Program-made: the position numbers and the translations under genes
Source: Struthio camelus
Taxonomy: Eukaryota; Chordata; Aves; Struthioniformes; Struthionidae
Direction of reading: 5' to 3'
Length of the DNA: 64,000 nucleotides
Assembly (NCBI RefSeq): GCF_040807025.1
Contig: NC_090954.1
Coordinates: 22,510,501-22,574,500, forward strand
Notes under the pieces: generated by a model
What the model saw: only the letters and a program-made list of their open reading frames with translations
Database searches by the model: none
Told to the model about the DNA's origin: nothing
Shown here: piece after piece, positions 29,969-64,000 of the stretch
Layout: every line of letters starts with the position of its first letter
How positions within the stretch are numbered: the first letter of the stretch is position 1

Positions 29969-31437
29969 ACGATGTAGATCGTTCCTTCTAGAAGGGCCTC
30001 CAAGGGAAGTCGCCAGTGAGCAACGCGAAGGATTCCCATGGAAGAGGGGTTTGAAACAGCTACGCAAGCCTTGTCAGACCTCTGAAATCGCTCCATTCCT
30101 GACAGTGCTCCTACAGGCGCTGCTGTGAAACGGGAAGCAGAAGGGCAAGCTGAAAGCTGATGACATTCTCCCAACGTCCAATGCCCCTCAGCACAGCAGG
30201 AAACAACTGCCCACACTCATGGCAAGCGGCCCCAGCTCGGGAAACCTCTCACACAGCAAACTCCACCTTGCCCTCGATTCCTGACGTGTCTCCTGAGTCA
30301 GGCTGGCGACAGGGAGACAGGCTGCTGTTGCTGGTGGCGCAGAATGGTGCCCCGGCTCGTACCCACATGCTCACCATCACGCCCCACGACATTACCACAA
30401 CACGTTTATCCGCACTCGCAGAAAACAAGCAAGGCCTACCACCGCGGGACACGTGCAAGGGGCACAGTCAGGAACCGTGAGTGACGAGCTTCCACCACCG
30501 TTCCCGGGGCCTGAGTGCATCTCCTCCACCAGCACACCCTGGCTAAGGCAGCGACATGCTTCCCCGTGTCTTACAGCGACCGCGCGATTTCCTCTTCTGC
30601 CTGTGCCCTTTAAGCTGCTGAGAATGCTAACAACGTACGTGGATCGAGGCTTTCCTCACGACAAGCTTCACCTCCCAAGACGCAGGTCACGCTCTCGCTC
30701 CTTCCGTAGGCCCAGGAGTGGCTTCTCGCGCCCGCACAGTCGAAGTAAGGCAGCATGTAGCAGCACGAAACTGCTTTTTCTCTGCCTTGTGCCCAGACAG
30801 AGGCATTCGAAAACAGCACACGCCGACACACTGTGCAAGCCTCCTGCAACACTGAACCACAGCTGAATACGACCGCCACCTCCAGGAGACCTACACTTCC
30901 GAACGCAGCTCAGCACCAGTATTGTTACACAGCAACACGGAACCGCCGAGGGCGAAACGGACACTTGTTTTGTGCAGTCGCACAAACGGCGCGCAGGGAA
31001 ACGCACGCAAGGACTCAGATCTTCCGGAGAGCAACCAAGGATGCAGAGTGAACGGCAACGATGTCTGGTGGACAAAGAGACTACGCAGGCAACGACGGAG
31101 CTCCTCTCCGCTTCTCGCGGGCGCGGACGAGGAAGTGGGGAACATAAATGCAGAAGCAATAGCGAGCAAAGGCAAAGAGGAAAGCAAACCCGGGCGAGAG
31201 CAGTCGCCCGCCTCCTTCCCTCTGCCGGGAACTCTCGGATCGGCCGCTGCGACCATCAAAGGCGGAGCCATCAGCGCTAATGACAGGGCACCCGCTCCCT
31301 GCCATTGTCCATTCACACCTCATGAAGGGTAAGCTCCTTAGGCACTAACTGCATTCAGCGTATAGAGGTGATGTCGGTTAATGAGGGCAATTTCTTTCTT
31401 TTCTTTTCCACCGTGCCTTGCCTTGCCTTGCTCTGCG

Positions 31438-31522
31438 TTCCCTCCCCTCCCCTCCCCTCCCCTTCCCTCCCCTCCCTTCCTCTTCCCTTCCCTTCCCTTC
31501 CCTTCCCTTCCCTTCTCTTCCT
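31438..31522 (+). repeat. (TTCCC)n tract, unit A (short allele)
   Basis: This is a pyrimidine tract of CCCTCC and TTCCC pentamers, about 85 bp. It is the shortest of the four unit copies and lies on the intron side of alpha exon A. In the leftward transcript it reads as GGGAA repeats. Confidence 0.95.
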
Positions 31523-32671
31523 CGCTTTAGACAAAACTTCCCGTCCCATTCCGAGCCCTTCACCAGTCCTCTTCTCTTTTCCTCCTCTTTTGTTCCCTCC
31601 TTTTCCAAAGTGCTTTCCGCATGTCCACTCCACTCTCGCAGGACCTACGGGCAGCACTTTAGGCAAGAGCTCTCACGCCTCTTCCTCCTCGAGTGCCATC
31701 GAGCCTTAGGAAAGACCGAGGCTTCCACTACCCATAGGTCGGCATGGGAAGCTCATGCTTCACCGACAGCAACAGGCGCAGACTGTTCCCTTTTGCAGCG
31801 CTCCGTTACGCACGCTGATGTAGCTCAGCGGTTTCAGGCACTCTCCCTGGCTACCAGAGAACGTATGATAGAGCAAGGAAACCGTATTACAAACAACACC
31901 TCGGCTACGCCATAACACAGTCGAAGCCTGCCGATGTACAAGACCAGCCTAAGTATGCCGTCAGTGTGGACAGACTCCCAAGAGACCGGACAACTCCAGG
32001 GACTCTCTGTTTTGGAAGCCCCACTCAACGTAGCCCAGCAAGCGAATGCTCAGAGAAGGGTCAACCACAAGCGCCGCTCACCACCCGCGCCGCTCTTTTT
32101 CAGTCCGTGAGACGACAGCCCGACTCGGGAAGAGCAAACCACAGCTCCCAGGCAGCACGTTTGGCCTGGTGCTTAGGCGCACCCTCCTCCTCAGGGCTCT
32201 CTGGAAATCATGTCTGAGAAGGGTAAGGCTCCAGCAGCACAACCCCAACAGCTGCAGAACCGCCTGCAAGCTCCCACTGCCACACGTGACGAGAAGACCC
32301 TCCCGCAACTCCGCTCCCAGAAACGGAAGGCGACACGCTCCCGAGAAAGCGTTCCGGGGAGATCGCTAGGGAAGACCTTCACACAAGGGATCCTGCCCAA
32401 CCCCCAGGCTCCAGAAGTCAGACTACGTCTCGAAGCGCACGCAGCACCTCGGACGTCTGAGAGCAGCGGCCAGCGAAGGCGGGCACCAAGGAGAGCGCTG
32501 TCAACAGCCAGAGAGCAAAGACCTGACGAGTACCGGCCACCCGCAGGCGCCGAGGCCCGAGGCCCGAGGCCCGAGGCCGGCTCCGAGAGGCGCTGCCGAA
32601 AGGCACAGGCAAGAAGGGAGAAAGAGGTGTCGGGAGACCCGGAGGGGAGAAGGGGTAGAAAAGGAAGTGCC

Positions 32672-32677
32672 ACTGAC
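32672..32677 (-). promoter_or_regulatory. Putative 5' splice donor of alpha exon A
   Basis: The coding sequence reads GACACG and then GTCAGT. It follows the conserved DLMVFSPNLP tail segment by 20 codons, close to the length in mammalian alpha exons, and leaves phase 0 as in PCDHAC1. The +3 base is C rather than the usual A or G, so the donor is weaker than consensus. I see no GTAAGT or GTGAGT close by in its place. Confidence 0.65.
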
Positions 32678-35140
32678 CGTGTCCAGGAGGGCGGGCGGAT
32701 CCGGCGGCGTCTCCTTCGGCGCGGGGCCGGCGGGCGGCGGCAAGTTGGGGCTGAAAACCATGAGGTCGCTCTTGCCCGCGCCGTCCGCCACGCACAGGCT
32801 CCGGCTCTGGCGCTGCGAGTACGACCAGCTGCCCACTTCGCTGGCGCACACCAGCGTCGCCGGCCCGGGCCCCGACAGCACGGCCGCCCGCGGCGCCCAC
32901 CGCGACGCCCCGTACAGCACCACCGCCAGCAGGAACAGGCTCGACACCGCGCAGATGGCCACCACCAGCCACACGTTCGTCGTCGCCGCCACCGCCACCG
33001 CCGCTTCCGCGCCGCCCTCGCCGCCCGCCGCCCGCCGCGGCCCCGGCACCGACGAGCCCGCGCCCACCGCCCCCGCCCCCGCCCCCGCCGCGCCCTCGCC
33101 CAGCGACACGCTCAGCGTGGCCGTGGTCGAGCGCGCCGGCTCGCCGTGGTCGCGCACCACGATGACCAGCGTCTGCCGCGCGCCGTCCGCCTCCTCCAGC
33201 GCCCGCGCCGTGCTCACCTCGCCGCTGTACAGCCCCACGCGGAACGGGCCCTTGCCCCGCGGCTCGCGCAGCTCGTAGCGCAGCCACGCGTTGTAGCCCG
33301 AGTCCGCGTCCACCGCACGGATCTTCGCCACCACCTGCCCCGCCGGCGCCCCCCACGCCGCCCACGCCCACAGCGACGCCGGCGACGCCGGCCCCGGCCG
33401 CGACCCCGCCGCGCCGCCAGCCCACGGCCCCGCGCCGCCGCCCGCAGGCGGCAGCAGCGCCGGCGCGTTGTCGTTCTCGTCCACCACGAAGAGCTGCACC
33501 GTGGCGTTGCCGCACAGCGCCGGCTCCCCCGCGTCCACCGCCCGCACCTCGAACTGCAGCACCTGCACCTCCTCGTAGTCGAAGGGCTGCAGCGCCCACA
33601 GCCGCCCGCTCTCCGCCTCCACCGACACGTACCGCGACGCCGAGCGCCACGACGCGCCCCCCGCGCCCTCCGCCACCGAGTACCTCACGCGCCCGTTGCC
33701 CGCCTCGTCCGGGTCCCGCGCCCACAGCCGCGCCAGCTCCGCGCCCGCCGCGTTGTTCTCCCGCGCCAGCACCGTGTACACGGCCTGCGCGAACGCCGGC
33801 GCGTTGTCGTTCACGTCCGACACCGGCACCCGCAGCCCGCGGCTGCCGCGCAGCGCCGGCGCCCCGCCGTCCTCCGCCCGCACCTCCACCTCGTACTCCG
33901 CCACCCGCTCCCGGTCCAGCGCCTCCCGCAGCACCAGCGAGTACGAGCCCTCGAACGTCGCCACCAGCCCGAACGGCGCCGCCGGCCACACCGCGCACCG
34001 CACCCGCCCGTTCGCCCCCGAGTCCCGGTCCGACACGCTCAGCAGCGCCACCACCGTCCCCACCGCCGCGTCCTCCGGCACCGGCACCGACAGCGACGTC
34101 ACCCACACCTCCGGCGCGTTGTCGTTCACGTCCACCACCTCCAACAACACGCTGCAGTGCCCCGATAACGGAGGCGTACCCCTGTCTTTCGCTTCCACTT
34201 GTATCTCGTATAGGCGAACGTCTTCATAGTCCAGGGGGGCTGTTAGCCTGATCTCCCCCGTGCTCGGATTCACGGTAAATACGTCTTTGACAGTAGAAGG
34301 AACCAAACTGATGATGTCGTAGCAAACCTCCTCATTGGGTCCCTCGTCCCGATCCGTGGCGCTCACGCGCACCACCAGCGTCCCCTCTGCAGCGCTCTCC
34401 GACAGCTGCACTTTATACACCGACTGGTTGAACTCGGGCGCGTTGTCGTTCACATCCAGCACCGAGATCACCAGCTCCATCGTCCCCGACAGTGACGGTC
34501 TGCCCCCGTCTCTTGCCGTCACCAGCAAGTGGTGCACAGCCATCGACTCCCGGTCCAGCGCTTTCGACAGCACCAGGAATAACGATTTCCTGTTTTCATT
34601 CGCGGATTTAACGTCGAGAGCGAAATGCTCGCTGGGGCTGAGGGTGTAGGAGAGCTGCGCGTTGGCGCCGACATCGGCATCCGACGCGCCCTCCAGCGGA
34701 AAGCGGGAGCCCGGCAGCGTTGTTAATTCCGCGACGCTGAGTTTTCTGCGGGCGGCGGGGAAGAGCGGGGCGTTGTCGTTGATGTCGGTGACCTCCAGCT
34801 CCACGTGAAAGACGCGCAGCGGCCGCTCCACCAGCACCTCCAGGCGCAGGGCGCACGGCGCGCTCTTCCCGCACAGCTCCTCCCGGTCCAGCCGCGAGCT
34901 CACCACCAGCGCCCCGCTCGCCCCGCTCACCTCCACGCTCGCCCGCCGGCCCTTCGCCACCAGCCGCAGCCGGCGCGCCTCCAGCTCGCCCGCCTCCAGG
35001 CCCAGGTCCTGCGCCAGCCGACCCACCACCGTGCCGCCCTTCGCCTCCTCCGGCACCGAGTAGCGCACCGGACCGCCGCCCAGCGCCCAGGCCGCCTGCA
35101 GCACCAGCAGCCGCAGCACCGCCCGCACCCACACGCCCAT
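32678..35140 (-). CDS. PCDHA: Protocadherin alpha variable exon A
   Basis: This exon of 821 codons encodes an alpha-type clustered protocadherin, a single-pass neuronal surface protein that mediates homophilic recognition. Parts: signal peptide (1-22), EC1 with CX5C (90 and 96) ending at DINDNAP, EC2 to about 236, EC3 to about 343, EC4, EC5, EC6, membrane segment (about 722-744), and a tail with GSWSYSQ and DLMVFSPNLP, hallmarks of the alpha family. The ATG has a strong Kozak context (GCCATGG) and starts the signal peptide; the upstream frame is leader. EC1 and EC4-tail are the same as in copies B-D. EC2-EC3 (34193-34753) is distinct: EC2 has one extra residue (VAELTTLPG), and EC3 starts SESAAEGTLVV as in D but continues with its own middle (PNEEVCYDIISLVP). 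I cannot assign an alpha number. Confidence 0.9.
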
Positions 35141-35323
35141 GGCCAGCGCCGGCACCCGCACGCGCCCCGCACGCCTCCCCGACACCGCCGCCGCCGCCGC
35201 CGCCGCCCGCGCCCCGCCGCTCCCCCCGCGCTCACAGCCGGGCTTTCCGCCGCACCGGGGCGGAGCCGCCGCCGCCGCCGCCGCCGTTCCTGAGCCTGCA
35301 GCGACACCGTGTGCCCGCCGCCT
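35141..35323 (-). promoter_or_regulatory. Leader/promoter of alpha exon A with two GCC tracts and candidate CSE
   Basis: The leader holds two short GCC tracts (about 35185-35207 and 35266-35287). It also holds a CGCT box at 35300-35303 inside GGTGTCGCTGCAGGCTCAGG, 160 bp upstream of the ATG. This position fits the conserved sequence element of protocadherin promoters. All four units share this block, and unit A loses similarity to the others directly beyond it. Confidence 0.5.
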
Positions 35324-36370
35324 CGCACACGCCGCCCACTCCGCTCCGGCCAAGCCGCCTTTCGCCCGCGGTAGGGCCAGCACCCGCCGCGCCTCACCCC
35401 GACGCCCACGGCCTCGCCTGCTGCCCCGCTGCCAGCTCCCTGTCGCAGCGTCGCCCGCATGGCCTCAGCTCAGATGCGGCGGCTTTCCCTGCCCGACGCT
35501 TCACACGGCTTCCCAGGCACCAAAATACCACCACCCCGCCATGACCTCTTCGCGGGCTAAGCCACCCTCCCGCGGAACAAGGCTTTTTTCACCCCCAGCT
35601 TCACCTCCCGTGACGCAGTCCAGCCGGCTGCTACTTCCGTAGACAGAGCCGCGCCTTGTTACACCCACACCGTCGATCCATGGCTAGCAGCATATAATTA
35701 ATGTTGTATCGCCTGGAGCCCAGGCAGAAGCTTATGACATGGGCAACCACAAGCTCCCCACTTTTGGCACCATAGCTAAGCATTCGTATATGGATCTGCT
35801 GGAACCGGAAGAACGTTCTGCTCTTGAACAATACGACACACTGTGCAGGGAACGGATGAGCTGCCCCCGCTTCCTTTGGTGAGGAGGGGGCATAAGCCGA
35901 AAACCAGAAGGGCTAAAGGAGGAAAAGAGAGCACGCGAGAAATCGCACCCTTCGGTCTCGCCTTCCCGCCTCGGGGATCTCTCGGGTCGCCTCCACCTCG
36001 GCGGCTGGGACCAGCAGGGACAGCGCCATCAGCTCTCTGGGGCCGTACCCCCACACCTAAGGAAGGCTAAGCTCGCATTCAGCAGAGAGAAAGAACATGT
36101 TTGTTGGTGGTGGTGACTTCTTTTCATTTTTCCTTCCCTTGTCCTGCCTCTCCCTCTCTTTCCTACTCCACCCCCTCGAACATCTTCCAATCGCTTCCCA
36201 CCCCGTCCCTTCTCTGCTTCTATTTCGCTTCTCATTTCTTTCTTCCTTTCCCCAAAGCATTCTCTAAATGTTCACGCCACTCTGGACATTGAGGACGGGC
36301 ACGATTTTAGGCAAAACCTCCCCTGTCTCTTCCTTCCTCTTTTCCACCATGCTTTTCACAAAGTCCCAGA
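35324..36370. other. Unit-A-specific upstream segment
   Basis: This segment is not shared with the matching place in units B-D. The first 300 bp is GC-rich, then AT content rises. The last part (about 36.06-36.37 kb) is a diverged relative of the spacer block that carries the (TTCCC)n tract elsewhere in the unit. It has GGTGGTGACTTCTTTTC, a pyrimidine stretch, CCAAAGCATTCTCTAAATG and CACGATTTTAGGCAAAACC in the same order. It therefore preserves an older version of the array. No gene is recognised. Confidence 0.6.
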
Positions 36371-38457
36371 GCACTCCCGAGTACGGCCCCTACTCGGCCG
36401 CAACAGCAGAACGTTCCACCCTTTCCAGTACAAGGCCAGCCTGAGACACGGCCAGTGTGCTCAGCCTCCAAAGAGACCTAACAACGCCAGACACTCCTCA
36501 CTTCAGGAAGGCAGCATGGACCTAGCTCCTCCTCATCTTTCCCGCCAGGCATGCACTCACAGAACAACACAGCCACCACTTCGCTACCCGCCGGATTTAC
36601 TCCCCACACACTGCCTCACGCTCATCAACATCATCCACCTGTCACAAGAACAAACAGAAGCCATGAAGGTGGCCCGACCGCGTTTTCACTGAGGACATCC
36701 CCAATCACTCCCAACACAGCCACAGAGGCAAACACAGGAGAGACCTTCCCACACTCACACACACGTGCTTGCTCTCACGCTGTGCCAGGAAGCAACGTGC
36801 AAAGCCAGCGAGCGATCCCTCGGAAGTCCTGCCGCCTGGGCCAAGCCTGCACGCAACGTTAGATCCACCCAAATTACTGTCTCGTGACTACACGGCAACA
36901 CAGAGACATCTGCCTGTCACACGCACCCTCTTCTGGTGGAGTCTGAGGCACCGGGAAGTTCGGCCAGTGGCTGCTTCTGCAGAAAAACAATGTAGATCGC
37001 TCCTTCTAGAAGGGCCTCCAAGGGAAGTCGCCAGTGAGCAACGCGAAGGATTCCCATGGAAGAGGGGTTTGAAACAGCTACGCAAGCCTTGTCAGACCTC
37101 TGAAATCGCTCCATTCCTGACAGTGCTCCTACAGGCGCTGCTGTGAAACGGGAAGCAGAAGGGCAAGCTGAAAGCTGATGACATTCTCCCAACGTCCAAT
37201 GCCCCTCAGCACAGCAGGAAACAATCGCCCACACTCATGGCAAGCGGCCCCAGCTCGGGAAACCTCTCACACAGCAAACTCCACCTTGCCCACAATTCCT
37301 GACGTGTCTCCTGAGTCAGGCTGGCGACAGGGAGACAGGCTGCTGTTGCTGGTGGCGCAGAATGGTGCCCCGGCTCGTACCCACATGCTCACCATCACGC
37401 CCCACGACATTACCACAACACGTTTATCCGCACTCGCAGAAAACAAGCAAGGCCTACCACCGCGGGACACGTGCAAGGGGCACAGTCAGGAACCGTGAGT
37501 GACGAGCTTCCACCACCGTTCCCGGGGCCTGAGTGCACCTCCTCCACCAGCACACCCTGGCTAAGGCAGCGACATGCTTCCCCGTGTCTTACAGCGACCG
37601 CGCGATTTCCTCTTCTGCCTGTGCCCTTTAAGCTGCTGAGAATGCTAACAACGTACGTGGATCGAGGCTTTCCTCACGACAAGCTTCACCTCCCAAGACG
37701 CAGGTCACGCTCTCGCTCCTTCCGTAGGCCCAGGAGTGGCTTCTCGCGCCCGCACAGTCGAAGTAAGGCAGCATGTAGCAGCACGAAACTGCTTTTTCTC
37801 TGCCTTGTGCCCAGACAGAGGCATTCGAAAACAGCACACGCCGACACACTGTGCAAGCCTCCTGCAACACTGAACCACAGCTGAACACGACCGCCACCTC
37901 CAGGAGACCTACACTTCCGAACGCAGCTCAGCACCAGTATTGTTACACAGCAACACGGAACCGCCGAGGGCGAAACGGACACTTGTTTTGTGCAGTCGCA
38001 CAAACGGCGCGCAGGGAAACGCACGCAAGGACTCAGATCTTCCGGAGAGCAACCAAGGATGCAGAGTGAACGGCAACGATGTCTGGTGGACAAAGAGACT
38101 ACGCAGGCAACGACGGAGCTCCTCTCCGCTTCTCGCGGGCGCGGACGAGGAAGTGGGGAACACAAATGCAGAAGCAATAGCGAGCAAAGGCAAAGAGGAA
38201 AGCAAACCCGGGCGAGAGCAGTCGCCCGCCTCCTTCCCTCTGCCGGGAACTCTCGGATCGGCCGCTGCGACCATCAAAGGCGGAGCCATCAGCGCTAATG
38301 ACAGGGCACCCGCTCCCTGCCATTGTCCATTCACACCTCATGAAGGGTAAGCTCCTTAGGCACTAACTGCATTCAGCGTATAGAGGTGATGTCGGTTAAT
38401 GAGGGCAATTTCTTTCTTTTCTTTTCCACCGTGCCTTGCCTTGCCTTGCTTTACGTT

Positions 38458-38648
38458 CCCTCCCCTCCCCTCCCCTCCCCTCCCCTTCCTTCCCCTTCCT
38501 TTCCCTCCCCTCCCCTCCCCTCCCCTCCCCTTCCCTTCCCTTCCCTTCCCTTCCCTTCCCTTCCCTTCCCTTCCCTTCCCTTCCCTTCCCTTCCCTTCCC
38601 TTCCCTTCCCTTCCCTTCCCTTCCCTTCCCTTCCCTTCCCTTCCCCTC
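38458..38648 (+). repeat. (TTCCC)n tract, unit B
   Basis: About 190 bp of CCCTCC followed by a long uninterrupted TTCCC pentamer run. It reads GGGAA in the leftward transcript, a spacing that can form stacked G-quadruplexes. Confidence 0.95.
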
Positions 38649-39794
38649 TTTAGACAAAACTTCCCGTCCCATTCCGAGCCCTTCACCAGTCCTCTTCTCT
38701 TTTCCTCCTCTTTTGTTCCCTCCTTTTCCAAAGTGCTTTCCACATGTCCACTCCACTCTCGCAGGACCTACGGGCAGCACTTTAGGCAAGAGCTCTCACG
38801 CCTCTTCCTCCTCGAGTGCCATCGAGCCTTAGGAAAGACCGAGGCTTCCACTACCCATAGGTCGGCATGGGAAGCTCATGCTTCACCGACAGCAACAGGC
38901 GCAGACTGTTCCCTTTTGCAGCGCTCCGTTACGCACGCTGATGTAGCTCAGCGGTTTCAGGCACTCTCCCTGGCTACCAGAGAACGTATGATAGAGCAAG
39001 GAAACCGTATTACAAACAACACCTCGGCTACGCCATAACACAGTCGAAGCCTGCCGATGTACAAGACCAGCCTAAGTATGCCGTCAGTGTGGACAGACTC
39101 CCAAGAGACGGGACAACTCCAGGGACTCTCTGTTTTGGAAGCCCCACTCAACGTAGCCCAGCAAGCGAATGCTCAGAGAAGGGTCAACCACAAGCGCCGC
39201 TCACCACCCGCGCCGCTCTTTTTCAGTCCGTGAGACGACAGCCCGACTCGGGAAGAGCAAACCACAGCTCCCAGGCAGCACGTTTGGCCTGGTGCTTAGG
39301 CGCACCCTCCTCCTCAGGGCTCTCTGGAAATCATGTCTGAGAAGGGTAAGGCTCCAGCAGCACAACCCCAACAGCTGCAGAACCGCCTGCAAGCTCCCAC
39401 TGCCACACGTGACGAGAAGACCCTCCCGCAACTCCGCTCCCAGAAACGGAAGGCGACACGCTCCCGAGAAAGCGTTCCGGGGAGATCGCTAGGGAAGACC
39501 TTCACACAAGGGATCCTGCCCAACCCCCAGGCTCCAGAAGTCAGACTACGTCTCGAAGCGCACGCAGCACCTCGGACGTCTGAGAGCAGCGGCCAGCGAA
39601 GGCGGGCACCAAGGAGAGCGCTGTCAACAGCCAGAGAGCAAAGACCTGACGAGTACCGGCCACCCGCAGGTGCCGAGGCCCGAGGCCCGAGGCCCGAGGC
39701 CGGCTGCGAGAGGCGCTGCCGAAAGGCACAGGCAAGAAGGGAGAAAGAGGTGTCGGGAGACCCGGAGGGGAGAAGGGGTAGAAAAGGAAGTGCC

Positions 39795-39800
39795 ACTGAC
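39795..39800 (-). promoter_or_regulatory. Putative 5' splice donor of alpha exon B
   Basis: Same context as in copy A: GACACG then GTCAGT, phase 0, C at +3. Confidence 0.65.
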
Positions 39801-42260: not shown

Positions 42261-42299
42261 GGCCAGCGCCGGCACCCGCACGCGCCCCGCACGCCTCCC

Positions 42300-42348
<49 letters not shown>

Positions 42349-42399
42349 CCGCCGCTCCCCCCGCGCTCACAGCCGGGCTTTCCGCCGCACCGGGGCGGA

Positions 42400-42437
<38 letters not shown>

Positions 42438-42473
42438 TCCTGAGCCTGCAGCGACACCGTGTGCCCGCCGCCT
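42261..42473 (-). promoter_or_regulatory. Leader/promoter of alpha exon B with two long GCC tracts and candidate CSE
   Basis: This has the same block as unit A, but both GCC tracts are longer (about 42305-42341 and 42401-42436). That moves the CGCT box (42450-42453) to 190 bp upstream of the ATG. The box sits in the same conserved context as in the other units. Confidence 0.5.
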
Positions 42474-43777: not shown

Positions 43778-43880
43778 ACCGAAACAGAATGGCCCAGCCT
43801 TTGAAATGCGGGCCTAACCTTACATACCAAAACAGAATGGCCCAGCCTTTGAATTGCGGGCCTAACCCTACATACCATTA
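43778..43880 (+). repeat. Short tandem duplication unique to unit B
   Basis: A block beginning AACAGAATGGCCCAGCCTTT and ending CATACC occurs twice in a row here and once in units C and D. In the adjacent TGCAAGGAACTCACTTTGC minisatellite, unit D has one more copy than B and C. These are small copy-number differences between otherwise matching spacers. Confidence 0.85.
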
Positions 43881-51778: not shown

Positions 51779-51817
51779 GGCCAGCGCCGGCACCCGCACG
51801 CGCCCCGCACGCCTCCC

Positions 51818-51854
<37 letters not shown>

Positions 51855-51967
51855 CCGCCGCTCCCCCCGCGCTCACAGCCGGGCTTTCCGCCGCACCGGG
51901 GCGGAGCCGCCGCCGCCGCCGCCGCCGCCGTTCCTGAGCCTGCAGCGACACCGTGTGCCCGCCGCCT
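51779..51967 (-). promoter_or_regulatory. Leader/promoter of alpha exon C with two GCC tracts and candidate CSE
   Basis: GCC tracts lie at about 51823-51849 and 51906-51930. The CGCT box is at 51944-51947, 166 bp upstream of the ATG, in the context shared by all units. Confidence 0.5.
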
Positions 51968-52554
51968 ACTACAAACAACGCCTCGCTTACGCCGTAGCCA
52001 AGTCTAGACCTGTCGCTGCACAAGACCAGCCTAAGGCACGGCCAGTGTGCACAGACTCCCAAGAGAGCACACAGCTCCAGGGACTCGCTGTTTCGGAAGC
52101 CCCACGGAACACAGCCCAGCAAGCGACAGCTCAGAGAAGGGTGACGTAAAATAGGGGAGGCACAGCTCTGCAGCGCTCTTTCTCCCCGCCGCTCCCCGCG
52201 CCGCCGCCTGCGCCAGCCCTGCCCGCCGCACCCGGGCTCCGCCGTCTCCCGGCCGCTGACGGGCAGCCGTGGCAGCCGCTCGGGGAGGAGCTGCCTCCTT
52301 CCTCCCCGATCACGCCGCCTTCGCGGGCGACAGCGGCACCGTGTGTCCCACAGCGGCTCCTTCTCCTGCAAGCGCGCTCCTCTCCTCCCGCCGGCCTCCC
52401 GCGCCCCCGCTGCCGAGCCCCGCCGCGGGAAGGAAGGATGGCGCGGGGCCGGGCCCGCGCGGGCGACGAAGCTCCGCCGCCGCCGCCCTGCGGAACATTT
52501 CTCTCTGCCGAACACGACTCGGCACGCTCCAGGTCTTTTTCTAACTCGGCTCCT

Positions 52555-52766
52555 CCTCTCTTCCCTTCCCTTCCCTTCTCTTCCCTTCTCTTCTCTTCTC
52601 TTCCCTTCTCTTCTCTTCTCTTCTCTTCTCTTCTCTTCTCTTCTCTTCTCTTCGCTTCGCTTCGCTTCGCTTCGCTTCGCTTCGCTTCCCGTCGCTTCCC
52701 GTCGCTTCCCGTCGCTTCCCGTCGCTTCCCGTCGCTTCCCGTCGCTTCGCTTCGCTTCGCTTCTTT
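52555..52766 (+). repeat. Compound pentamer array CTTCC/CTTCT/CTTCG, unit C
   Basis: Same organisation as in unit B, but with six CTTCCCGTCG decamers instead of three and a shorter CTTCG run. Confidence 0.93.
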
Positions 52767-54451
52767 TCCCTCCTCTTCCCTCCCCTTTCCTCCCCTCCCC
52801 TCCCCTTCTCTATTCCCCTCTCCTCTCCCCCCACCCCCGCCCCGCTCTTCTCCATGTGCCTGGGGACTCAGAGCTACCGCACCAGGGATCACACCTGAGG
52901 AGGCCTTCAGCAGAAAAAAACTGCTCTACCTCTCCTCCCCTTGACTTTGTCTTCACTACACGTTGCTCAGGAGGGGTGAGAAGGCCTTGTATTTCTTTCA
53001 TTCCTCCTGCAATAGCTCCTGGACCGGCTATCGCTGCACCGCCGCTTCCTTTATGGCAGAAGAACTTACCCTTGGGCCTCCATCCATGGCAAGACCGAGG
53101 CTTCCAGAAGAAGTATATGCACATGGAAATGATTCCTGGCGTGTCCCTCACTGTTGGCAACAGGCAGAATGTGTCCGTTTCTGCGTGACTGGGTTTACAG
53201 CGCTCATGCACCTGAGCCCTGCCCTGCAAGGAACTGCTGCAGGAACTCACTTTGCTGCAAGGAACTCACTTTGCAAAAACATCTCTGTCTGACCGAAACA
53301 GAATGGCCCAGCCTTTGAATTGCGGGCCTAACCCTACATACCATTAGGGCACAGAGACTCCAGGGAGTCCAAACTCCTCCAGCGAGTCTTTACTTTGGGA
53401 TGTCAAACTGAACACGGACAAGTATGCAAACGCTCCAAGAATGGTGAAGTAACAGAGCCGAACCACAGCTCTCTAGTAATCCTCATATACCTTACGCAAG
53501 AGCTTTCTCTTCCTCCCCAGTTTCCATTTGGAGATGCACAATTAGTGTCAAGTTCCTCATTATCTAATCGAACATGCATGGTCACATTGTACAACAGAGC
53601 AAGAGCCCTATCTCCAGCCGAAGCTGGTCACCACAGAATGCCTCGGATACGTTACAATGACCCACGTGTCACATAACCACACAAAAGCCATGCAGCTTAC
53701 GCTACTGCACGGGCAAGGAACAGTTTGTCTGAGAACACCGCTCAGAGTCCCACCACCTGTACAGTCACAAACGCATTAAGGCCCCTCCACTACTCAGTGC
53801 AGAAGGCCACCTAATGCCACTTCACTGATACCAGGGAGCAACACGAAGGGGGCAGTTGCACAGAATAGCGCCATCCTGCTCCAAGCACGGAACCAGCAGC
53901 CGTATAACATGCGGTCAGTCTAAAACTATCCTATCGAGAATAAATGGAAATCATGTAGGTACCAGAAATATGTCTGTCTCTCTGTCAGAGATGTCAACTT
54001 TACCTACAGCGCTACCCACTTTGCAATCTTACAAGTGGTCTTGGTTTGCTTCTTTAGGAGGGGGCAGGGGGCAGACAGAAAAAAAAAAAAAAAGCGTTCT
54101 TCACATTTCTTCACATCTGAAGGGGTTTTAAGGGCCATCTTCCATGATAGGTCTTCATTAGACGCCGGGAACTGGGCTGGAAAAAGGAAGCCGGTTTTGT
54201 CAAAGCTCTTACTTCGTTGCCTTATTGCTACAGCTCTTACATCCACCTCTGCAAGGAGGGAAGCAGGAGGCCTGTAAACGGGAAACACATGAACTGCACG
54301 GCATTGTGCAAAGGTGAACCTCACCTCCAGAGACTGGAGGAACCACAGTGACCCACAACGACAGCAAAAGGCTCAAACTCTGAAATCATCCACCCAATAA
54401 TACTCGGCAGTCTGCCTCTTGCTCACAATTACGGACCCATTTCCTGGCAAA

Positions 54452-54708
54452 GGCAAGCTAAACCATGCTGATTACAGGGGAAGGGAGACTTGCAGGTGTT
54501 GGGTCTGTTGCTAGCCAGATGCTCACTGTAACGCACAAGGAAATGATCCATCGCCAACTTATTTTAAAATTCTCTCAGAAAATGAAACAACCAAGGCCTA
54601 CGATTGCAGGGCATATGGCACCGCTACAGTCAGGAACCACTACCGATGTGCTCCTGCTAGCGCAGTCAGGCACCAAAGCCGAGTCCTCTAGCAACGCCTA
54701 GACACAAA
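54452..54708. other. 257-bp segment shared by units C and D, absent from B
   Basis: This lies at the same position as unit B's 658-bp segment and is unrelated to it by eye. It recurs at 63517-63773 in unit D. No gene is recognised. Confidence 0.8.
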
Positions 54709-56980
54709 CACGTCCACAACTAAGGGAAGGCAAGAACACCCAACACCCTAATGGCACCCGCCTCCCCATGCCTTCCTGGAAATCATACCTGATGAGGAGA
54801 AAGGCACCAAGACCACCAAAGGCAGCTCAAGCTGAAACAAAGCTCCCCGCACCACAAAAGGCAAGAAGAGTTGATAGGCTACCTCCCACAACACCGCACT
54901 CCCGAGTACGGCCCCTACTCGGCCGCAACAGCAGAACGTTCCACCCTTTCCAGTACAAGGCCAGCCTGAGACACGGCCAGTGTGCTCAGCCTCCAAAGAG
55001 ACCTAACAACGCCAGACACTCCTCACTTCAGGAAGGCAGCATGGACCTAGCTCCTCCTCATCTTTCCCGCCAGGCATGCGCTCACAGAACAACACAGCCA
55101 CCACTTCGCTACCCGCCGGATTTACTCCCCACACACTGCCTCACGCTCATCAACATCATCCACCTGTCACAAGAACAAACAGAAGCCATGAAGGTGGCCC
55201 GACCGCGTTTTCACTGAGGACATCCCCAATCACTCCCAACACAGCCACAGAGGCAAACACAGGAGAGACCTTCCCACACTCACACACACGTGCTTGCTCT
55301 CACGCTGTGCCAGGAAGCAACGTGCAAAGCCAGCGAGCGATCCCTCGGAAGTCCTGCCGCCTGGGCCAAGCCTGCACGCAACGTTAGATCCACCCAAATT
55401 ACTGTCTCGTGACTACACGGCAACACAGAGACATCTGCCTGTCACACGCACCCTCTTCTGGTGGAGTCTGAGGCACCGGGAAGTTCGGCCAGTGGCTGCT
55501 TCTGCAGAAAAACAATGTAGATCGTTCCTTCTAGAAGGGCCTCCAAGGGAAGTCGCCAGTGAGCAACGCGAAGGATTCCCATGGAAGAGGGGTTTGAAAC
55601 AGCTACGCAAGCCTTGTCAGACCTCTGAAATCGCTCCATTCCTGACAGTGCTCCTACAGGCGCTGCTGTGAAACGGGAAGCAGAAGGGCAAGCTGAAAGC
55701 TGATGACATTCTCCCAACGTCCAATGCCCCTCAGCACAGCAGGAAACAACTGCCCACACTCATGGCAAGCGGCCCCAGCTCGGGAAACCTCTCACACAGC
55801 AAACTCCACCTTGCCCTCGATTCCTGACGTGTCTCCTGAGTCAGGCTGGCGACAGGGAGACAGGCTGCTGTTGCTGGTGGCGCAGAATGGTGCCCCGGCT
55901 CGTACCCACATGCTCACCATCACGCCCCACGACATTACCACAACACGTTTATCCACACTCGCAGAAAACAAGCAAGGCCTACCACCGCGGGACACGTGCA
56001 AGGGGCACAGTCAGGAACCGTGAGTGACGAGCTTCCACCACCGTTCCCGGGGCCTGAGTGCACCTCCTCCACCAGCACACCCTGGCTAAGGCAGCGACAT
56101 GCTTCCCCGTGTCTTACAGCGACCGCGCGATTTCCTCTTCTGCCTGTGCCCTTTAAGCTGCTGAGAATGCTAACAACGTACGTGGATCGAGGCTTTCCTC
56201 ACGACAAGCTTCACCTCCCAAGACGCAGGTCACGCTCTCGCTCCTTCCGTAGGCCCAGGAGTGGCTTCTCGCGCCCGCACAGTCGAAGTAAGGCAGCATG
56301 TAGCAGCACGAAACTGCTTTTTCTCTGCCTTGTGCCCAGACAGAGGCATTCGAAAACAGCACACGCCGACACACTGTGCAAGCCTCCTGCAACACTGAAC
56401 CACAGCTGAATACGACCGCCACCTCCAGGAGACCTACACTTCCGAACGCAGCTCAGCACCAGTATTGTTACACAGCAACACGGAACCGCCGAGGGCGAAA
56501 CGGACACTTGTTTTGTGCAGTCGCACAAACGGCGCGCAGGGAAACGCACGCAAGGACTCAGATCTTCCGGAGAGCAACCAAGGATGCAGAGTGAACGGCA
56601 ACGATGTCTGGTGGACAAAGAGACTACGCAGGCAACGACGGAGCTCCTCTCCGCTTCTCGCGGGCGCGGACGAGGAAGTGAGGAACACAAATGCAGAAGC
56701 AATAGCGAGCAAAGGCAAAGAGGAAAGCAAACCCGGGCGAGAGCAGTCGCCCGCCTCCTTCCCTCTGCCGGGAACTCTCGGATCGGCCGCTGCGACCATC
56801 AAAGGCGGAGCCATCAGCGCTAATGACAGGGCACCCGCTCCCTGCCATTGTCCATTCACACCTCATGAAGGGTAAGCTCCTTAGGCACTAACTGCATTCA
56901 GCGTATAGAGGTGATGTCGGTTAATGAGGGCAATTTCTTTCTTTTCTTTTCCACCGTGCCTTGCCTTGCCTTGCTTTGCG

Positions 56981-57229
56981 TTCCCTCCCCTCCCCTCCCC
57001 TCCCCTCCCCTCCCCTCCCCTTCCCTTCCCTTCCCTTCCCTTCCCTTCCCTTCCCTTCCCTTCCCTTCCCTTCCCTTCCCTTCCCTTCCCTTCCCTTCCC
57101 TTCCCTTCCCTTCCCTTCCCTTCCCTTCCCTTCCCTTCCCTTCCCTTCCCTTCCCTTCCCTTCCCTTCCCTTCCCTTCCCTTCCCTTCCCTTCCCTTCCC
57201 TTCCCTTCCCTTCCCTTCCCTTCCCTTCC
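56981..57229 (+). repeat. (TTCCC)n tract, unit D
   Basis: About 249 bp, the purest of the four: CCCTCC repeats followed by an uninterrupted TTCCC run of more than 200 bp. Confidence 0.95.
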
Positions 57230-58376
57230 TCGCTTTAGACAAAACTTCCCGTCCCATTCCGTGCCCTTCACCAGTCCTCTTCTCTTTTCCTCCTCTTTTG
57301 TTCCCTCCTTTTCCAAAGTGCTTTCCACATGTCCACTCCACTCTCGCAGGACCTACGGGCAGCACTTTAGGCAAGAGCTCTCACGCCTCTTCCTCCTCGA
57401 GTGCCATCGAGCCTTAGGAAAGACCGAGGCTTCCACTACCCATAGGTCGGCATGGGAAGCTCATGCTTCACCGACAGCAACAGGCGCAGACTGTTCCCTT
57501 TTGCAGCGCTCCGTTACGCACGCTGATGTAGCTCAGCGGTTTCAGGCACTCTCCCTGGCTACCAGAGAACGTATGATAGAGCAAGGAAACCGTATTACAA
57601 ACAACACCTCGGCTACGCCATAACACAGTCGAAGCCTGCCGATGTACAAGACCAGCCTAAGTATGCCGTCAGTGTGGACAGACTCCCAAGAGACCGGACA
57701 ACTCCAGGGACTCTCTGTTTTGGAAGCCCCACTGAACGTAGCCCAGCAAGCGAATGCTCAGAGAAGGGTCAACCACAAGCGCCGCTCACCACCCGCGCCG
57801 CTCTTTTTCAGTCCGTGAGACGACAGCCCGACTCGGGAAGAGCAAACCACAGCTCCCAGGCAGCACGTTTGGCCTGGTGCTTTGCTCCCTCCTCCTCAGG
57901 GCTCTCTGGAAATCATGTCTGAGAAGGGTAAGGCTCCAGCAGCACAACCCCAACAGCTGCAGAACCGCCTGCAAGCTCCCACTGCCACACGTGACGAGAA
58001 GACCCTCCCGCAACTCCGCTCCCAGAAACGGAAGGCGACACGCTCCCGAGAAAGCGTTCCGGGGAGATCGCTAGGGAAGACCTTCACACAAGGGATCCTG
58101 CCCAACCCCCAGGCTCCAGAAGTCAGACTACGTCTCGAAGCGCACGCAGCACCTCGGACGTCTGAGAGCAGCGGCCAGCGAAGGCGGGCACCAAGGAGAG
58201 CGCTGTCAACAGCCAGAGAGCAAAGACCTGACGAGTACCGGCCACCCGCAGGCGCCGAGGCCCGAGGCCCGAGGCCCGAGGCCGGCTCCGAGAGGCGCTG
58301 CCGAAAGGCACAGGCAAGAAGGGAGAAAGAGGTGTCGGGAGACCCGGAGGGGAGAAGGGGTAGAAAAGGAAGTGCC

Positions 58377-58382
58377 ACTGAC
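58377..58382 (-). promoter_or_regulatory. Putative 5' splice donor of alpha exon D
   Basis: GTCAGT after GACACG, phase 0, as in the other alpha exons of the array. Confidence 0.65.
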
Positions 58383-60842
58383 CGTGTCCAGGAGGGCGGG
58401 CGGATCCGGCGGCGTCTCCTTCGGCGCGGGGCCGGCGGGCGGCGGCAAGTTGGGGCTGAAAACCATGAGGTCGCTCTTGCCCGCGCCGTCCGCCACGCAC
58501 AGGCTCCGGCTCTGGCGCTGCGAGTACGACCAGCTGCCCACTTCGCTGGCGCACACCAGCGTCGCCGGCCCGGGCCCCGACAGCACGGCCGCCCGCGGCG
58601 CCCACCGCGACGCCCCGTACAGCACCACCGCCAGCAGGAACAGGCTCGACACCGCGCAGATGGCCACCACCAGCCACACGTTCGTCGTCGCCGCCACCGC
58701 CACCGCCGCTTCCGCGCCGCCCTCGCCGCCCGCCGCCCGCCGCGGCCCCGGCACCGACGAGCCCGCGCCCACCGCCCCCGCCCCCGCCCCCGCCGCGCCC
58801 TCGCCCAGCGACACGCTCAGCGTGGCCGTGGTCGAGCGCGCCGGCTCGCCGTGGTCGCGCACCACGATGACCAGCGTCTGCCGCGCGCCGTCCGCCTCCT
58901 CCAGCGCCCGCGCCGTGCTCACCTCGCCGCTGTACAGACCCACGCGGAACGGGCCCTTGCCCCGCGGCTCGCGCAGCTCGTAGCGCAGCCACGCGTTGTA
59001 GCCCGAGTCCGCGTCCACCGCACGGATCTTCGCCACCACCTGCCCCGCCGGCGCCCCCCACGCCGCCCACGCCCACAGCGACGCCGGCGACGCCGGCCCC
59101 GGCCGCGACCCCGCCGCGCCGCCAGCCCACGGCCCCGCGCCGCCGCCCGCAGGCGGCAGCAGCGCCGGCGCGTTGTCGTTCTCGTCCACCACGAAGAGCT
59201 GCACCGTGGCGTTGCCGCACAGCGCCGGCTCCCCCGCGTCCACCGCCCGCACCTCGAACTGCAGCACCTGCACCTCCTCGTAGTCGAAGGGCTGCAGCGC
59301 CCACAGCCGCCCGCTCTCCGCCTCCACCGACACGTACCGCGACGCCGAGCGCCACGACGCGCCCCCCGCGCCCTCCGCCACCGAGTACCTCACGCGCCCG
59401 TTGCCCGCCTCGTCCGGGTCCCGCGCCCACAGCCGCGCCAGCTCCGCGCCCGCCGCGTTGTTCTCCCGCGCCAGCACCGTGTACACGGCCTGCGCGAACG
59501 CCGGCGCGTTGTCGTTCACGTCCGACACCGGCACCCGCAGCCCGCGGCTGCCGCGCAGCGCCGGCGCCCCGCCGTCCTCCGCCCGCACCTCCACCTCGTA
59601 CTCCGCCACCCGCTCCCGGTCCAGCGCCTCCCGCAGCACCAGCGAGTACGAGCCCTCGAACGTCGCCACCAGCCCGAACGGCGCCGCCGGCCACACCGCG
59701 CACCGCACCCGCCCGTTCGCCCCCGAGTCCCGGTCCGACACGCTCAGCAGCGCCACCACCGTCCCCACCGCCGCGTCCTCCGGCACCGGCACCGACAGCG
59801 ACGTCACCCACACCTCCGGCGCGTTGTCGTTCACGTCCACCACCTCCAACAACACGCTGCAGTGCCCCGATAACGGAGGCGTACCCCTGTCTTTCGCCTC
59901 AATGCGAAAGTCAAATGCGCTGACTTCTTCAAAGTCCAGGGGGGCTGTTAGCCTGATCTCCCCCGTGCTCGGATTCACGCTTATCAGGTCTTTTCCGAGG
60001 AGTGGAAGGAAGTGCGTGGCTGTGTACACCACTTCCCCGTTAATTCCCTCGTCCCGATCCGTGGCGCTCACGCGCACCACCAGCGTCCCCTCTGCAGCGC
60101 TCTCCGACAGCTGCACTTTATACACCGACTGGTTGAACTCGGGCGCGTTGTCGTTCGCATCCAGCACCGAGATCACCAGCTCCATCGTCCCCGACAGCGA
60201 CGGTCTGCCCCCGTCACTCGCCGTCACCAGCAAGCGGTGCACAGCCATCGACTCCCGGTCCAGCGCTTTCGTCAACACGAGTTCCGGTAACGTATTCTGG
60301 TCATTCACTTTTTGTAAATCCAACCTGAAATGCTCGCTGGGGCTGAGGGTGTAGGAGAGCTGCGCGTTGGCGCCGACATCGGCATCCGACGCGCCCTCCA
60401 GCGGAAAGCGGGAGCCCGGCAGCGCTGATTCCGCGACGCTGAGGTTTTTGCGGTCGGCGGGGAAGAGCGGGGCGTTGTCGTTGATGTCGGTGACCTCCAG
60501 CTCCACGTGAAAGACGCGCAGCGGCCGCTCCACCAGCACCTCCAGGCGCAGGGCGCACGGCGCGCTCTTCCCGCACAGCTCCTCCCGGTCCAGCCGCGAG
60601 CTCACCACCAGCGCCCCGCTCGCCCCGCTCACCTCCACGCTCGCCCGCCGGCCCTTCGCCACCAGCCGCAGCCGGCGCGCCTCCAGCTCGCCCGCCTCCA
60701 GGCCCAGGTCCTGCGCCAGCCGACCCACCACCGTGCCGCCCTTCGCCTCCTCCGGCACCGAGTAGCGCACCGGACCGCCGCCCAGCGCCCAGGCCGCCTG
60801 CAGCACCAGCAGCCGCAGCACCGCCCGCACCCACACGCCCAT
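58383..60842 (-). CDS. PCDHA: Protocadherin alpha variable exon D
   Basis: An intact exon of 820 codons with the domain order of copy B. Its variable window is 59898-60455. EC2 starts SVAESALPG as in B, but residue 130 is Asp and the next block is its own (HFRLDLQKVNDQNTLPELVL). The linker at 229 is Ala as in B. EC3 starts SESAAEGTLVV as in A, has its own middle (INGEVVYTATHFLPLLGK), then VNPSTGEIRLTAPLD as in A, then its own FEEVSAFDFRIEAK. Outside the window I see one silent change near 58938 and otherwise the common sequence. The pattern of blocks shared with A and with B in one exon argues for segmental exchange. Confidence 0.92.
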
Positions 60843-60881
60843 GGCCAGCGCCGGCACCCGCACGCGCCCCGCACGCCTCCC

Positions 60882-60918
<37 letters not shown>

Positions 60919-61031
60919 CCGCCGCTCCCCCCGCGCTCACAGCCGGGCTTTCCGCCGCACCGGGGCGGAGCCGCCGCCGCCGCCGCCGCCGCCGTTCCTG
61001 AGCCTGCAGCGACACCGTGTGCCCGCCGCCT
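60843..61031 (-). promoter_or_regulatory. Leader/promoter of alpha exon D with two GCC tracts and candidate CSE
   Basis: GCC tracts lie at about 60887-60912 and 60970-60994. The CGCT box is at 61008-61011, 166 bp upstream of the ATG, in the same context as the other units. Confidence 0.5.
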
Positions 61032-61618
61032 ACTACAAACAACGCCTCGCTTACGCCGTAGCCAAGTCTAGACCTGTCGCTGCACAAGACCAGCCTAAGG
61101 CACGGCCAGTGTGCACAGACTCCCAAGAGAGCACACAGCTCCAGGGACTCGCTGTTTCGGAAGCCCCACGGAACACAGCCCAGCAAGCGACAGCTCAGAG
61201 AAGGGTGACGTAAAATAGGGGAGGCACAGCTCTGCAGCGCTCTTTCTCCCCGCCGCTCCCCGCGCCGCCGCCTGCGCCAGCCCTGCCCGCCGCACCCGGG
61301 CTCCGCCGTCTCCCGGCCGCTGACGGGCAGCCGTGGCAGCCGCTCGGGGAGGAGCTGCCTCCTTCCTCCCCGATCACGCCGCCTTCGCGGGCGACAGCGG
61401 CACCGTGTGTCCCACAGCGGCTCCTTCTCCTGCAAGCGCGCTCCTCTCCTCCCGCCGGCCTCCCGCGCCCCCGCTGCCGAGCCCCGCCGCGGGAAGGAAG
61501 GATGGCGCGGGGCCGGGCCCGCGCGGGCGACGAAGCTCCGCCGCCGCCGCCCTGCGGAACATTTCTCTCTGCCGAACACGACTCGGCACGCTCCAGGTCT
61601 TTTTCTAACTCGGCTCCT

Positions 61619-61815
61619 CCTCTCTTCCCTTCCCTTCCCTTCTCTTCCCTTCTCTTCTCTTCTCTTCCCTTCTCTTCTCTTCTCTTCTCTTCTCTTCTCT
61701 TCTCTTCTCTTCTCTTCTCTTCTCTTCGCTTCGCTTCGCTTCGCTTCGCTTCGCTTCGCTTCGCTTCCCGTCGCTTCCCGTCGCTTCCCGTCGCTTCGCT
61801 TCGCTTCGCTTCTTT
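61619..61815 (+). repeat. Compound pentamer array CTTCC/CTTCT/CTTCG, unit D
   Basis: Organised as in unit B, with three CTTCCCGTCG decamers and a longer CTTCT run. Confidence 0.93.
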
Positions 61816-63960
61816 TCCCTCCTCTTCCCTCCCCTTTCCTCCCCTCCCCTCCCCTTCTCTATTCCCCTCTCCTCTCCCCCCACCCCCGCCCCGCTCTTCT
61901 CCATGTGCCTGGGGACTCAGAGCTACCGCACCAGGGATCACACCTGAGGAGGCCTTCAGCAGAAAAAAACTGCTCTACCTCTCCTCCCCTTGACTTTGTC
62001 TTCACTACACGTTGCTCAGGAGGGGTGAGAAGGCCTTGTATTTCTTTCATTCCTCCTGCAATAGCTCCTGGACCGGCTATCGCTGCACCGCCGCTTCCTT
62101 TATGGCAGAAGAACTTACCCTTGGGCCTCCATCCATGGCAAGACCGAGGCTTCCAGAAGAAGTATATGCACATGGAAATGATTCCTGGCGTGTCCCTCAC
62201 TGTTGGCAACAGGCAGAATGTGTCCGTTTCTGCGTGACTGGGTTTACAGCGCTCATGCACCTGAGCCCTGCCCTGCAAGGAACTGCTGCAGGAACTCACT
62301 TTGCTGCAAGGAACTCACTTTGCTGCAAGGAACTCACTTTGCAAAAACATCTCTGTCTGACCGAAACAGAATGGCCCAGCCTTTGAATTGCGGGCCTAAC
62401 CCTACATACCATTAGGGCACAGAGACTCCAGAGAGTCCAAACTCCTCCAGCGAGTCTTTACTTTGGGATGTCAAACTGAACACGGACAAGTATGCAAACG
62501 CTCCAAGAATGGTGAAGTAACAGAGCCGAACCACAGCTCTCTAGTAATCGTCATATACCTTACGCAAGAGCTTTCTCTTCCTCCCCAGTTTCCATTTGGA
62601 GATGCACAATTAGTGTCAAGTTCCTCATTATCTAATCGAACATGCATGGTCACATTGTACAACAGAGCAAGAGCCCTATCTCCAGCCGAAGCTGGTCACC
62701 ACAGAATGCCTCGGATACGTTACAATGACCCACGTGTCACATAACCACACAAAAGCCATGCAGCTTACGCTACTGCACGGGCAAGGAACAGTTTGTCTGA
62801 GAACACCGCTCAGAGTCCCACCACCTGTACAGTCACAAACGCATTAAGGCCCCTCCACTACTCAGTGCAGAAGGCCACCTAATGCCACTTCACTGATACC
62901 AGGGAGCAACACGAAGGGGGCAGTTGCACAGAATAGCGCCATCCTGCTCCAAGCACGGAACCAGCAGCCGTATAACATGCGGTCAGTCTAAAACTATCCT
63001 ATCGAGAATAAATGGAAATCATGTAGGTACCACAAATATGTCTGTCTCTCTGTCAGAGATGTCGACTTTACCTACAGCGCTACCCACTTTGCAATCTTAC
63101 AAGTGGTCTTGGTTTGCTTCTTTAGGAGGGGGCAGGGGGCAGACAGAAAAAAAAAAAAGCGTTCTTCACATTTCTTCACATCTGAAGGGGTTTTAAGGGC
63201 CATCTTCCATGATAGGTCTTCATTAGACGCCGGGAACTGGGCTGGAAAAAGGAAGCCGGTTTTGTCAAAGCTCTTACTTCGTTGCCTTATTGCTACAGCT
63301 CTTACATCCACCTCTGCAAGGAGGGAAGCAGGAGGCCTGTAAACGGGAAACACATGAACTGCATGGCATTGTGCAAAGGTGAACCTCACCTCCAGAGACT
63401 GGAGGAACCACAGTGACCCACAACGACAGCAAAAGGCTCAAACTCTGAAATCATCCACCCAATAATACTCGGCAGTCTGCCTCTTGCTCACAATTACGGA
63501 CCCATTTCCTGGCAAAGGCAAGCTAAACCATGCTGATTACAGGGGAAGGGAGACTTGCAGGTGTTGGGTCTGTTGCTAGCCAGATGCTCACTGTAACGCA
63601 CAAGGAAATGATCCATCGCCAACTTATTTTAAAATTCTCTCAGAAAATGAAACAACCAAGGCCTACGATTGCAGGGCATATGGCACCGCTACAGTCAGGA
63701 ACCACTACCGATGTGCTCCTGCTAGCGCAGTCAGGCACCAAAGCCGAGTCCTCTAGCAACGCCTAGACACAAACACGTCCACAACTAAGGGAAGGCAAGA
63801 ACACCCAACACCCTAATGGCACCCGCCTCCCCATGCCTTCCTGGAAATCATACCTGATGAGGAGAAAGGCACCAAGACCACCAAAGGCAGCTCAAGCTGA
63901 AACAAAGCTCCCCGCACCACAAAAGGCAAGAAGAGTTGATAGGCTACCTCCCACAACACC

Positions 63961-64000
63961 GCACTCCCGAGTACGGCCCCTACTCGGCCGCAACAGCAGA
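63961..64000. repeat. Start of a further tandem unit (E), cut by the window edge
   Basis: GCACTCCCGAGTACGGCCCC, the shared start of units B-D, begins again here. The array therefore continues to the right, and at least one more alpha exon can be expected. Confidence 0.85.

Follow-up and report, generated by a model that had tools for sequence, protein, structure and literature searches.

A protocadherin-alpha exon array of Struthio camelus with near-identical units and divergent islands in EC2 and EC3

The 64,000-base stretch of Struthio camelus contig NC_090954.1 analysed here (the window; C13:22510501-22574500, in a genome of 1.45 Gb and 262 contigs) carries four large protocadherin-alpha-type exons, A to D, on the minus strand, with start codons at 35140, 42260, 51778 and 60842; positions follow whole-window numbering unless given as C13 coordinates. 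A search of the bird's own genome and of the 80 kb after the window revealed nine such exons genome-wide, in an array that runs past the window end and consists of nine head-to-tail units, A to I, each with one exon and its own upstream region. The exon encodes six extracellular cadherin domains (EC1-EC6), a membrane segment and a short tail. Exon A is an uninterrupted open reading frame with Pfam matches to Cadherin (five stretches) and Cadherin_2 and a weak match to Cadherin_C_2, and its protein was closest, in a comparison among solved structures only, to mouse Pcdha7 (608.8 bits; runner-up 513.5). Downstream of the array and on the same strand lies a single diverged protocadherin exon, 37% identical to A and with a G+C content at third codon positions (GC3) of about 0.5, which appears C-type-like, a label given by position only. 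This layout of a one-orientation tandem array followed by a single diverged exon fits the alpha cluster, and we conclude that the locus is the alternate-exon array of the vertebrate protocadherin-alpha cluster. Exon A ends at a putative GT donor, and short constant-region motifs of mammals had no match within the window. In unit I, exon homology starts at the leader (window coordinate about 120913; C13:22631413), and the upstream sequence is different and has its own in-frame ATG.

The four units of the window were aligned base by base with MAFFT, and identity was taken in windows of 100 and 50 columns. Among A-D, the 3' spacer (its CCTTC repeat excluded) and the exon were 97-100% identical in 100-column windows, except for a drop at codons 130-316, covering EC2 and most of EC3 and termed the trough below; in 50-column windows, mean identity fell from 100% to 54-73% within one or two windows at the 3' edge of the trough. 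Substitutions in the six pairs numbered 0 of 387 exon bases 5' of the trough and 1-4 of 1,682-1,689 bases 3' of it, as against 19-153 of 561 bases inside. Outside codons 125-320, variable codons among A-D were restricted to 636, 683 and 685 (column 781, also listed, marks the end of the alignment), and stretches perfectly shared by all four reached 959 columns. When all nine units were aligned, 4 of the 573 codons at 4-128 and 333-780 were variable (637, 684, 686 and 689 in that alignment); this count omits codons 321-332, where variation lies mainly in H, and codons 1-3, which differ in unit I, as homology in this unit starts from the leader, next to upstream sequence of its own. Mean amino-acid identity over the 36 pairs of nine units, with approximate domain limits, was 100% in EC1, 86.7% in EC2, 69.8% in EC3, 100% in both EC4 and EC5 and 99.9% in the rest, and all nine units were distinct over alignment columns 1-445 (leader to EC4). 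An earlier note on this DNA had described four alpha exons that are nearly identical except for a sharp trough in EC2-EC3; the alignment confirmed both the near-identity and the sharpness, and the recomputed trough coordinates agreed with it exactly.

The same note treated the trough as one continuous stretch that differs strongly in all four exons. The span of codons 130-316 was upheld, but within it divergence was confined to three islands (codons 130-144 at the start of EC2, 169-192 in EC2 and 246-316 in EC3) split by homogenised codons, of which 145-168 were the same in A-D, synonymous sites included, and 193-245 nearly the same. Strong differences were likewise found for most pairs but not for B and C, which differed at only 19 of 561 trough bases (3.4%) and, within codons 1-780, at about seven residues, in EC2 only. 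Pooled island synonymous divergence (dS) was 0.13 for B/C, 0.43 for A/D and 1.5-3.0 for the other four pairs (maximum 2.98), compared to 0-0.006 outside, and pooled nonsynonymous divergence (dN) was below dS in all six pairs. One origin proposed earlier was a young amplification whose recognition window was then rewritten, which would mean accelerated amino-acid change in place. The sharp edges and the near-zero divergence outside would agree with such rewriting; however, rewriting by new mutation fails because island dS is high, with four of six pairs near saturation, and pooled dN lies below it, and the same old types occur in several units. Mutational rewriting under positive selection was thus ruled out by dS and dN and could survive only in island 1, which has three replacement-only pairs; for the trough as a whole we regard it as next to impossible. 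The sister pairs A/E, B/F and C/G, with 8/6, 4/2 and 1/2 replacement/silent codon changes and one codon indel each in A/E and B/F, showed no replacement excess over the roughly 3:1 site ratio.

GC3 also separated the islands from their surroundings, at 278/437 (64%) in the islands of A-D versus 2321/2372 (98%) outside (Fisher P about 1e-94), and at 75/109 versus 580/593 in D alone (P about 7e-20). Invariant codons inside the trough were intermediate (78/89 over nine units). By the argument used for fugu (PMC1852091), high GC3 may mark long conversion here. The array thus showed the pattern of protocadherin concerted evolution with escape of EC2-EC3, namely low dS outside, high dS inside and GC3 raised in the homogenised part.

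The trough islands are a mosaic of old segments exchanged between units. Over 100 variable trough codons, the matches of A/D, B/C and B/D were clustered, 0 of 20,000 shuffles having as few runs. The nine units resolved into six trough blocks with 3-4 types each, and four-gamete violations were detected in 5 of 15 block pairs, every one involving island 1. Unit I carries a C-type island 1, an A-type island 2, an H-type start of EC3 and an A-type remainder, and unit D has two EC3 blocks in common with A, its other blocks being its own. In C, 15 of the 27 bases of a nine-codon patch (136-144) are different from B; the type of this patch also occurs in G and, slightly changed, in I, and is therefore a shared old type. 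A micro-inversion or shift as the source of this patch was rejected upon inspection of the bases and on its occurrence in G and I. The groupings of B, C and D also disagreed between compartments, sites supporting B|CD, BC|D and BD|C numbering 17, 8 and 4 outside the trough and 1, 135 and 17 inside it. Furthermore, unit C is 99.5% G-like in its trough, while its 5' flank is nearest D (13/3,714 differences versus 171/3,518 to G).

Such flank-trough discordance over kilobases could reflect assembly, but mosaics within tens of bases not easily. Chimeric or falsely duplicated units are a concern since the long perfectly shared stretches invite misjoins, and there is a gap of 200 N between H and I. 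There is, however, no N in the window or anywhere within A-H, and the mosaics inside the trough, such as the patch of C and the H-type EC3 start of I, are only tens of bases long, shorter than any read. All A-H pairs were moreover comparable in spacer divergence, with 12-35 differences in about 2,510-2,700 columns, unlike the pattern expected of one false duplicate. We thus consider an assembly artefact very improbable.

The spacers, held by the earlier note to be almost identical, were so on the 3' side (97-100%), but the 5' flanks were non-uniform: A and E share a type of segment with no match elsewhere in the window, and the segment of B is unrelated to the shorter one that occupies the same place, in identical copies, in C and D. 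The 5' flanks also indicated sisterhood. A and E differed at 10/1,845 flank positions and were 97.9% identical in the trough, and B and F at 11/4,123 with 98.9%; A/E and B/F, about 34.65 kb apart, look like a block copy. In the 3' spacer of A-H, 34 of 2,364 columns were variable, with mutually incompatible splits (BH, BE, DE, AE and AH), and 3 of 408 exon fourfold sites were variable. Conversion focused on the exon and stronger there than in the spacers thus found no support (P 0.35); the similar variation of spacer and exon implies that homogenisation or recency extends over the entire unit and is not specific to the exon. Between H and I, three copies of the alpha unit of about 4.8-5.1 kb each (C13:22611313-22626154; window coordinates 100813-115654) match unit C minus the exon and the proximal upstream part, with the 200-N gap in the third. 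Units therefore spread regardless of the exon.

These observations bear on a second possibility, that a single unit was amplified recently and that its EC2-EC3 blocks were then imported by conversion from older alpha exons located elsewhere or since lost. The similarly low variation of spacers and fourfold sites is what one recent spread gives, and the exon-less copies and the resemblance of A/E and B/F to block copies point the same way. On the other hand, the spacer splits conflict with a single tree, and a search of the bird's own genome with the trough of A uncovered no outside donor: among the matches listed, the nine strong places were all array units, and at least 56 other matches were at most 89% identical and short, or about 65-74% identical, some being cross-matches within the same exons. 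Import from outside is accordingly judged improbable.

Other protocadherin exons in tandem at 12.5-kb spacing, located on the same contig at a distance of about 200-370 kb, provided an internal control. The sample comprised 3 of at least 5 copies of a first exon type and, for a second type, 4 of at least 6 (copy numbers from match spacing). The three copies of the first type (L024, L026 and L028; region C13:22207711-22257838) were 99.5-99.8% identical and had no EC2-EC3 trough among them, the lowest 40-codon window being 95%, in EC1. Some isoforms of the neighbouring array are thus nearly duplicated, and a trough is not automatic. In the second type, three copies were 98.4-99.3% identical with some windows dipping to 89-93%, and the fourth, L022, showed a deep trough relative to them. 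In a more distant same-type pair, identity was 92-99% in the first codons, dropped to 51-67% across codons 81-400 and reached 98-100% from codon 441 onward. Recent copies are therefore alike throughout, and older ones have a diverged middle and homogenised ends.

Considering these results, we propose the following scenario, to which we assign a probability of about 0.7. Duplication of whole units or blocks, together with gene conversion or unequal exchange, would have kept leaders, EC1, EC4-EC6, tails and most of the spacer near-identical. Short EC2/EC3 recognition islands would escape lasting homogenisation and survive in the form of a few old sequence types, and short exchanges would reassort them between units, so that units come to differ in the old cassettes that they combine on a shared scaffold. 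The identity pattern, the islands, the old synonymous divergence, the mosaic and the GC3 contrast were observed directly, and the trough of older pairs in the neighbouring array is counted in favour. The transfers between units are probably gene conversion, and selection for distinct homophilic specificity may keep the islands apart. The earlier note had offered a choice between young amplification and continuous homogenisation that skips exactly the recognition window, which proved too sharp: recent whole-unit copying is visible in the A/E and B/F sisters, in trough and 5' flank alike, but homogenisation and island exchange also act. Likewise, the islands do escape homogenisation, but the codons between them do not, and troughs, whole or in part, have passed from unit to unit.

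Several results weigh against this scenario. The run tests were weaker for A/B, A/C and C/D (44, 1605 and 232 of 20,000 shuffles), and 10 of the 15 block pairs lacked a four-gamete set. C and G agree in all block types and are one trough residue apart, and the diversity of specificity is thus not maximal. Pooled dN below dS gives no signal of positive selection, although dS has reached saturation; within island 1, the changes in A/B, A/D and B/D are all nonsynonymous (4, 5 and 1), with no synonymous ones. Variation at fourfold sites was not significantly below that of the 3' spacer. The long divergent non-coding stretches in the flank of A and in B versus C/D persist amid homogenised DNA, so persistence alone needs no protein selection.

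The last point leads to a further alternative, in which the islands owe their persistence solely to a divergence too high for strand exchange (heteroduplex rejection), without present selection on recognition. The non-coding segments (1,047 bases in A/E; 656 versus 255 bases in B and C/D) persist likewise in homogenised flanks, and pooled island dN is below dS, as this alternative would have it. However, island contents do move between units, the divergence is bounded by EC2-EC3, the specificity region described in PMC5001838, and a trough in roughly the same region also occurs in older exon pairs of the neighbouring array. Heteroduplex rejection as the sole cause is judged unlikely, and the islands may be protected either by selection or by divergence that blocks recombination. 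As a tentative extension of our scenario, which we hold possible at somewhat less than even odds, the array may be a recombination-driven generator of specificity, in which a small stock of old EC2/EC3 cassettes (about 25-110 bases each) is reassorted by short conversion tracts on an invariant scaffold. New homophilic codes would then arise by combination rather than mutation, and homogenisation would keep the affinity, cis-dimer and regulatory parts interchangeable.

The reasoning of the earlier note on exon anatomy and on EC2-EC3 as the seat of specificity holds. EC2/EC3 is reported to set specificity and EC1/EC4 affinity, and the diversified parts of alpha isoforms are the EC2 beta4-beta5 loop and the EC3 Phe-X10-Phe loop (PMC5001838). 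Codon 139, in island 1, aligns to Pcdha7 chain position 116, and S116R disrupts trans binding in gammaC5 (PMC8901172), a comparison that assumes that numbering transfers between isoforms. In homophilic binding assays such as K562 cell aggregation, alpha isoforms reportedly need a carrier protocadherin (PMC5106212). Judging from sequence, the units may encode isoforms with common affinity (EC1/EC4) and cis (EC5/EC6) parts and different EC2/EC3 recognition patches. The array offers a natural experiment: in a protein of neuronal self-recognition, almost all parts are constant apart from the recognition islands. B/C is a minimal pair for how small a change shifts homophilic specificity.

Regional gene conversion is known from the protocadherin clusters of fugu, where, as here, part of the exon is about 99% identical between paralogues, the boundary is discrete and GC3 is raised in the homogenised part (PMC1852091); by the same source, EC2 and EC3 are seldom homogenised in zebrafish and mammals. 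Fugu exons, however, are homogenised only in their 3' part, from EC4 or EC5, with a GC3 of 54-69%, whereas EC1, the leader, the upstream 500 columns and the spacers are homogenised as well here, with about 98% GC3 beyond the islands. The form known from fish, limited to the 3' part of the exon, was thus not found. In mouse Pcdh-alpha 1-12, amino-acid identity of EC1-EC6 is 95.9, 69.3, 58.5, 85.5, 98.0 and 84.3% and dS is 0.31, 2.08, 2.15, 1.71, 0.27 and 1.35 (PMC4978886). The EC2-EC3 trough is the same, but EC4 and EC6 have diverged too in mouse, unlike here, where dS is near zero except in EC2-EC3 and non-coding DNA is homogenised. Zebrafish Pcdh2ab1-12 resembles the present array in strong conversion and in EC3 as the most diverged domain, but is homogenised mainly in EC5-EC6 (dS 0.12 and 0.01), with an EC1 dS of 1.67 (PMC4978886). 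Escape of EC2-EC3 with GC3-rich conversion is thus already published (PMC1852091; PMC4978886), and the present array represents an extreme form of this known process. As far as the analysis shows, the new elements are the extent of homogenisation (EC1, EC4, EC6, upstream and spacers), the island structure and the reassortment between nine units; the homogenised non-coding DNA plausibly exceeds what earlier work describes. A literature search, thin on subscription papers, found no bird protocadherin array of this kind, and absence from print is not claimed. The chicken CNR/Pcdh-alpha cluster, reportedly described by Sugino in 2004, is possibly the same locus in a bird, and that work may already report part of these findings. 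Homogenisation that can extend to whole units while island segments reassort bears on how isoform repertoires are renewed.

Table 1. Coordinates of exons, units, trough, islands and flank segments in the window
Feature	Position	Strand	Remark
Variable exon A	32678..35140	-	ATG to putative GT donor, 821 codons; donor read from sequence
Variable exon B	39801..42260	-	820 codons; putative donor via homology to A
Variable exon C	49319..51778	-	820 codons; putative donor via homology to A
Variable exon D	58383..60842	-	820 codons; putative donor via homology to A
Tandem unit A	29968..36985		7,018 bases
Tandem unit B	36986..46442		9,457 bases
Tandem unit C	46443..55510		9,068 bases
Tandem unit D	55511..64000		cut by window end; 9,065 bases in genome
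Divergent trough of A	34193..34753	-	codons 130-316, EC2 and most of EC3
Divergent trough of B	41316..41873	-	
Divergent trough of C	50834..51391	-	codons 246-316 equal B
Divergent trough of D	59898..60455	-	
Island 1	A 34709..34753, B 41832-41873, C 51350-51391, D 60414-60455	-	codons 130-144, start of EC2
Island 2	A 34565..34636, B 41688-41759, C 51206-51277, D 60270-60341	-	codons 169-192, EC2
Island 3	A 34193..34405, B 41316-41528, C 50834-51046, D 59898-60110	-	codons 246-316, EC3
5' flank segment of unit A	35324..36370		1,047 bases; no match elsewhere in window; same type in unit E
Segment of unit B	44982..45637		656 bases; unrelated to the C/D segment at the same place
Segment of unit C	54452..54706		255 bases; identical copy in D at 63517-63771
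Single diverged protocadherin exon	20017..22596	-	downstream of array; C-type-like by position

Long purine/pyrimidine repeats (CCTTC, CTTCG) at 38434-38645, 43066-43294, 47891-48170, 52560-52808, 56959-57229 and 61617-61857 account for part of the differences in unit length. Three simple CTCF-like patterns had no match in the exon or up to 700 bases upstream of it. Four 12-mers resembling the CR1 tail, tried as a sign of bird DNA, were likewise absent from the window. A 47-base element was found about 270 bases upstream of the start codon of B (42526-42572), with an 87% copy about 3.6 kb upstream (45888-45934); unit A has the element only as the distal copy (36430-36476). Upstream of the array, a diverged protocadherin-like stretch, 44% identical to A, lies at C13:22656417-22658489 (L020).

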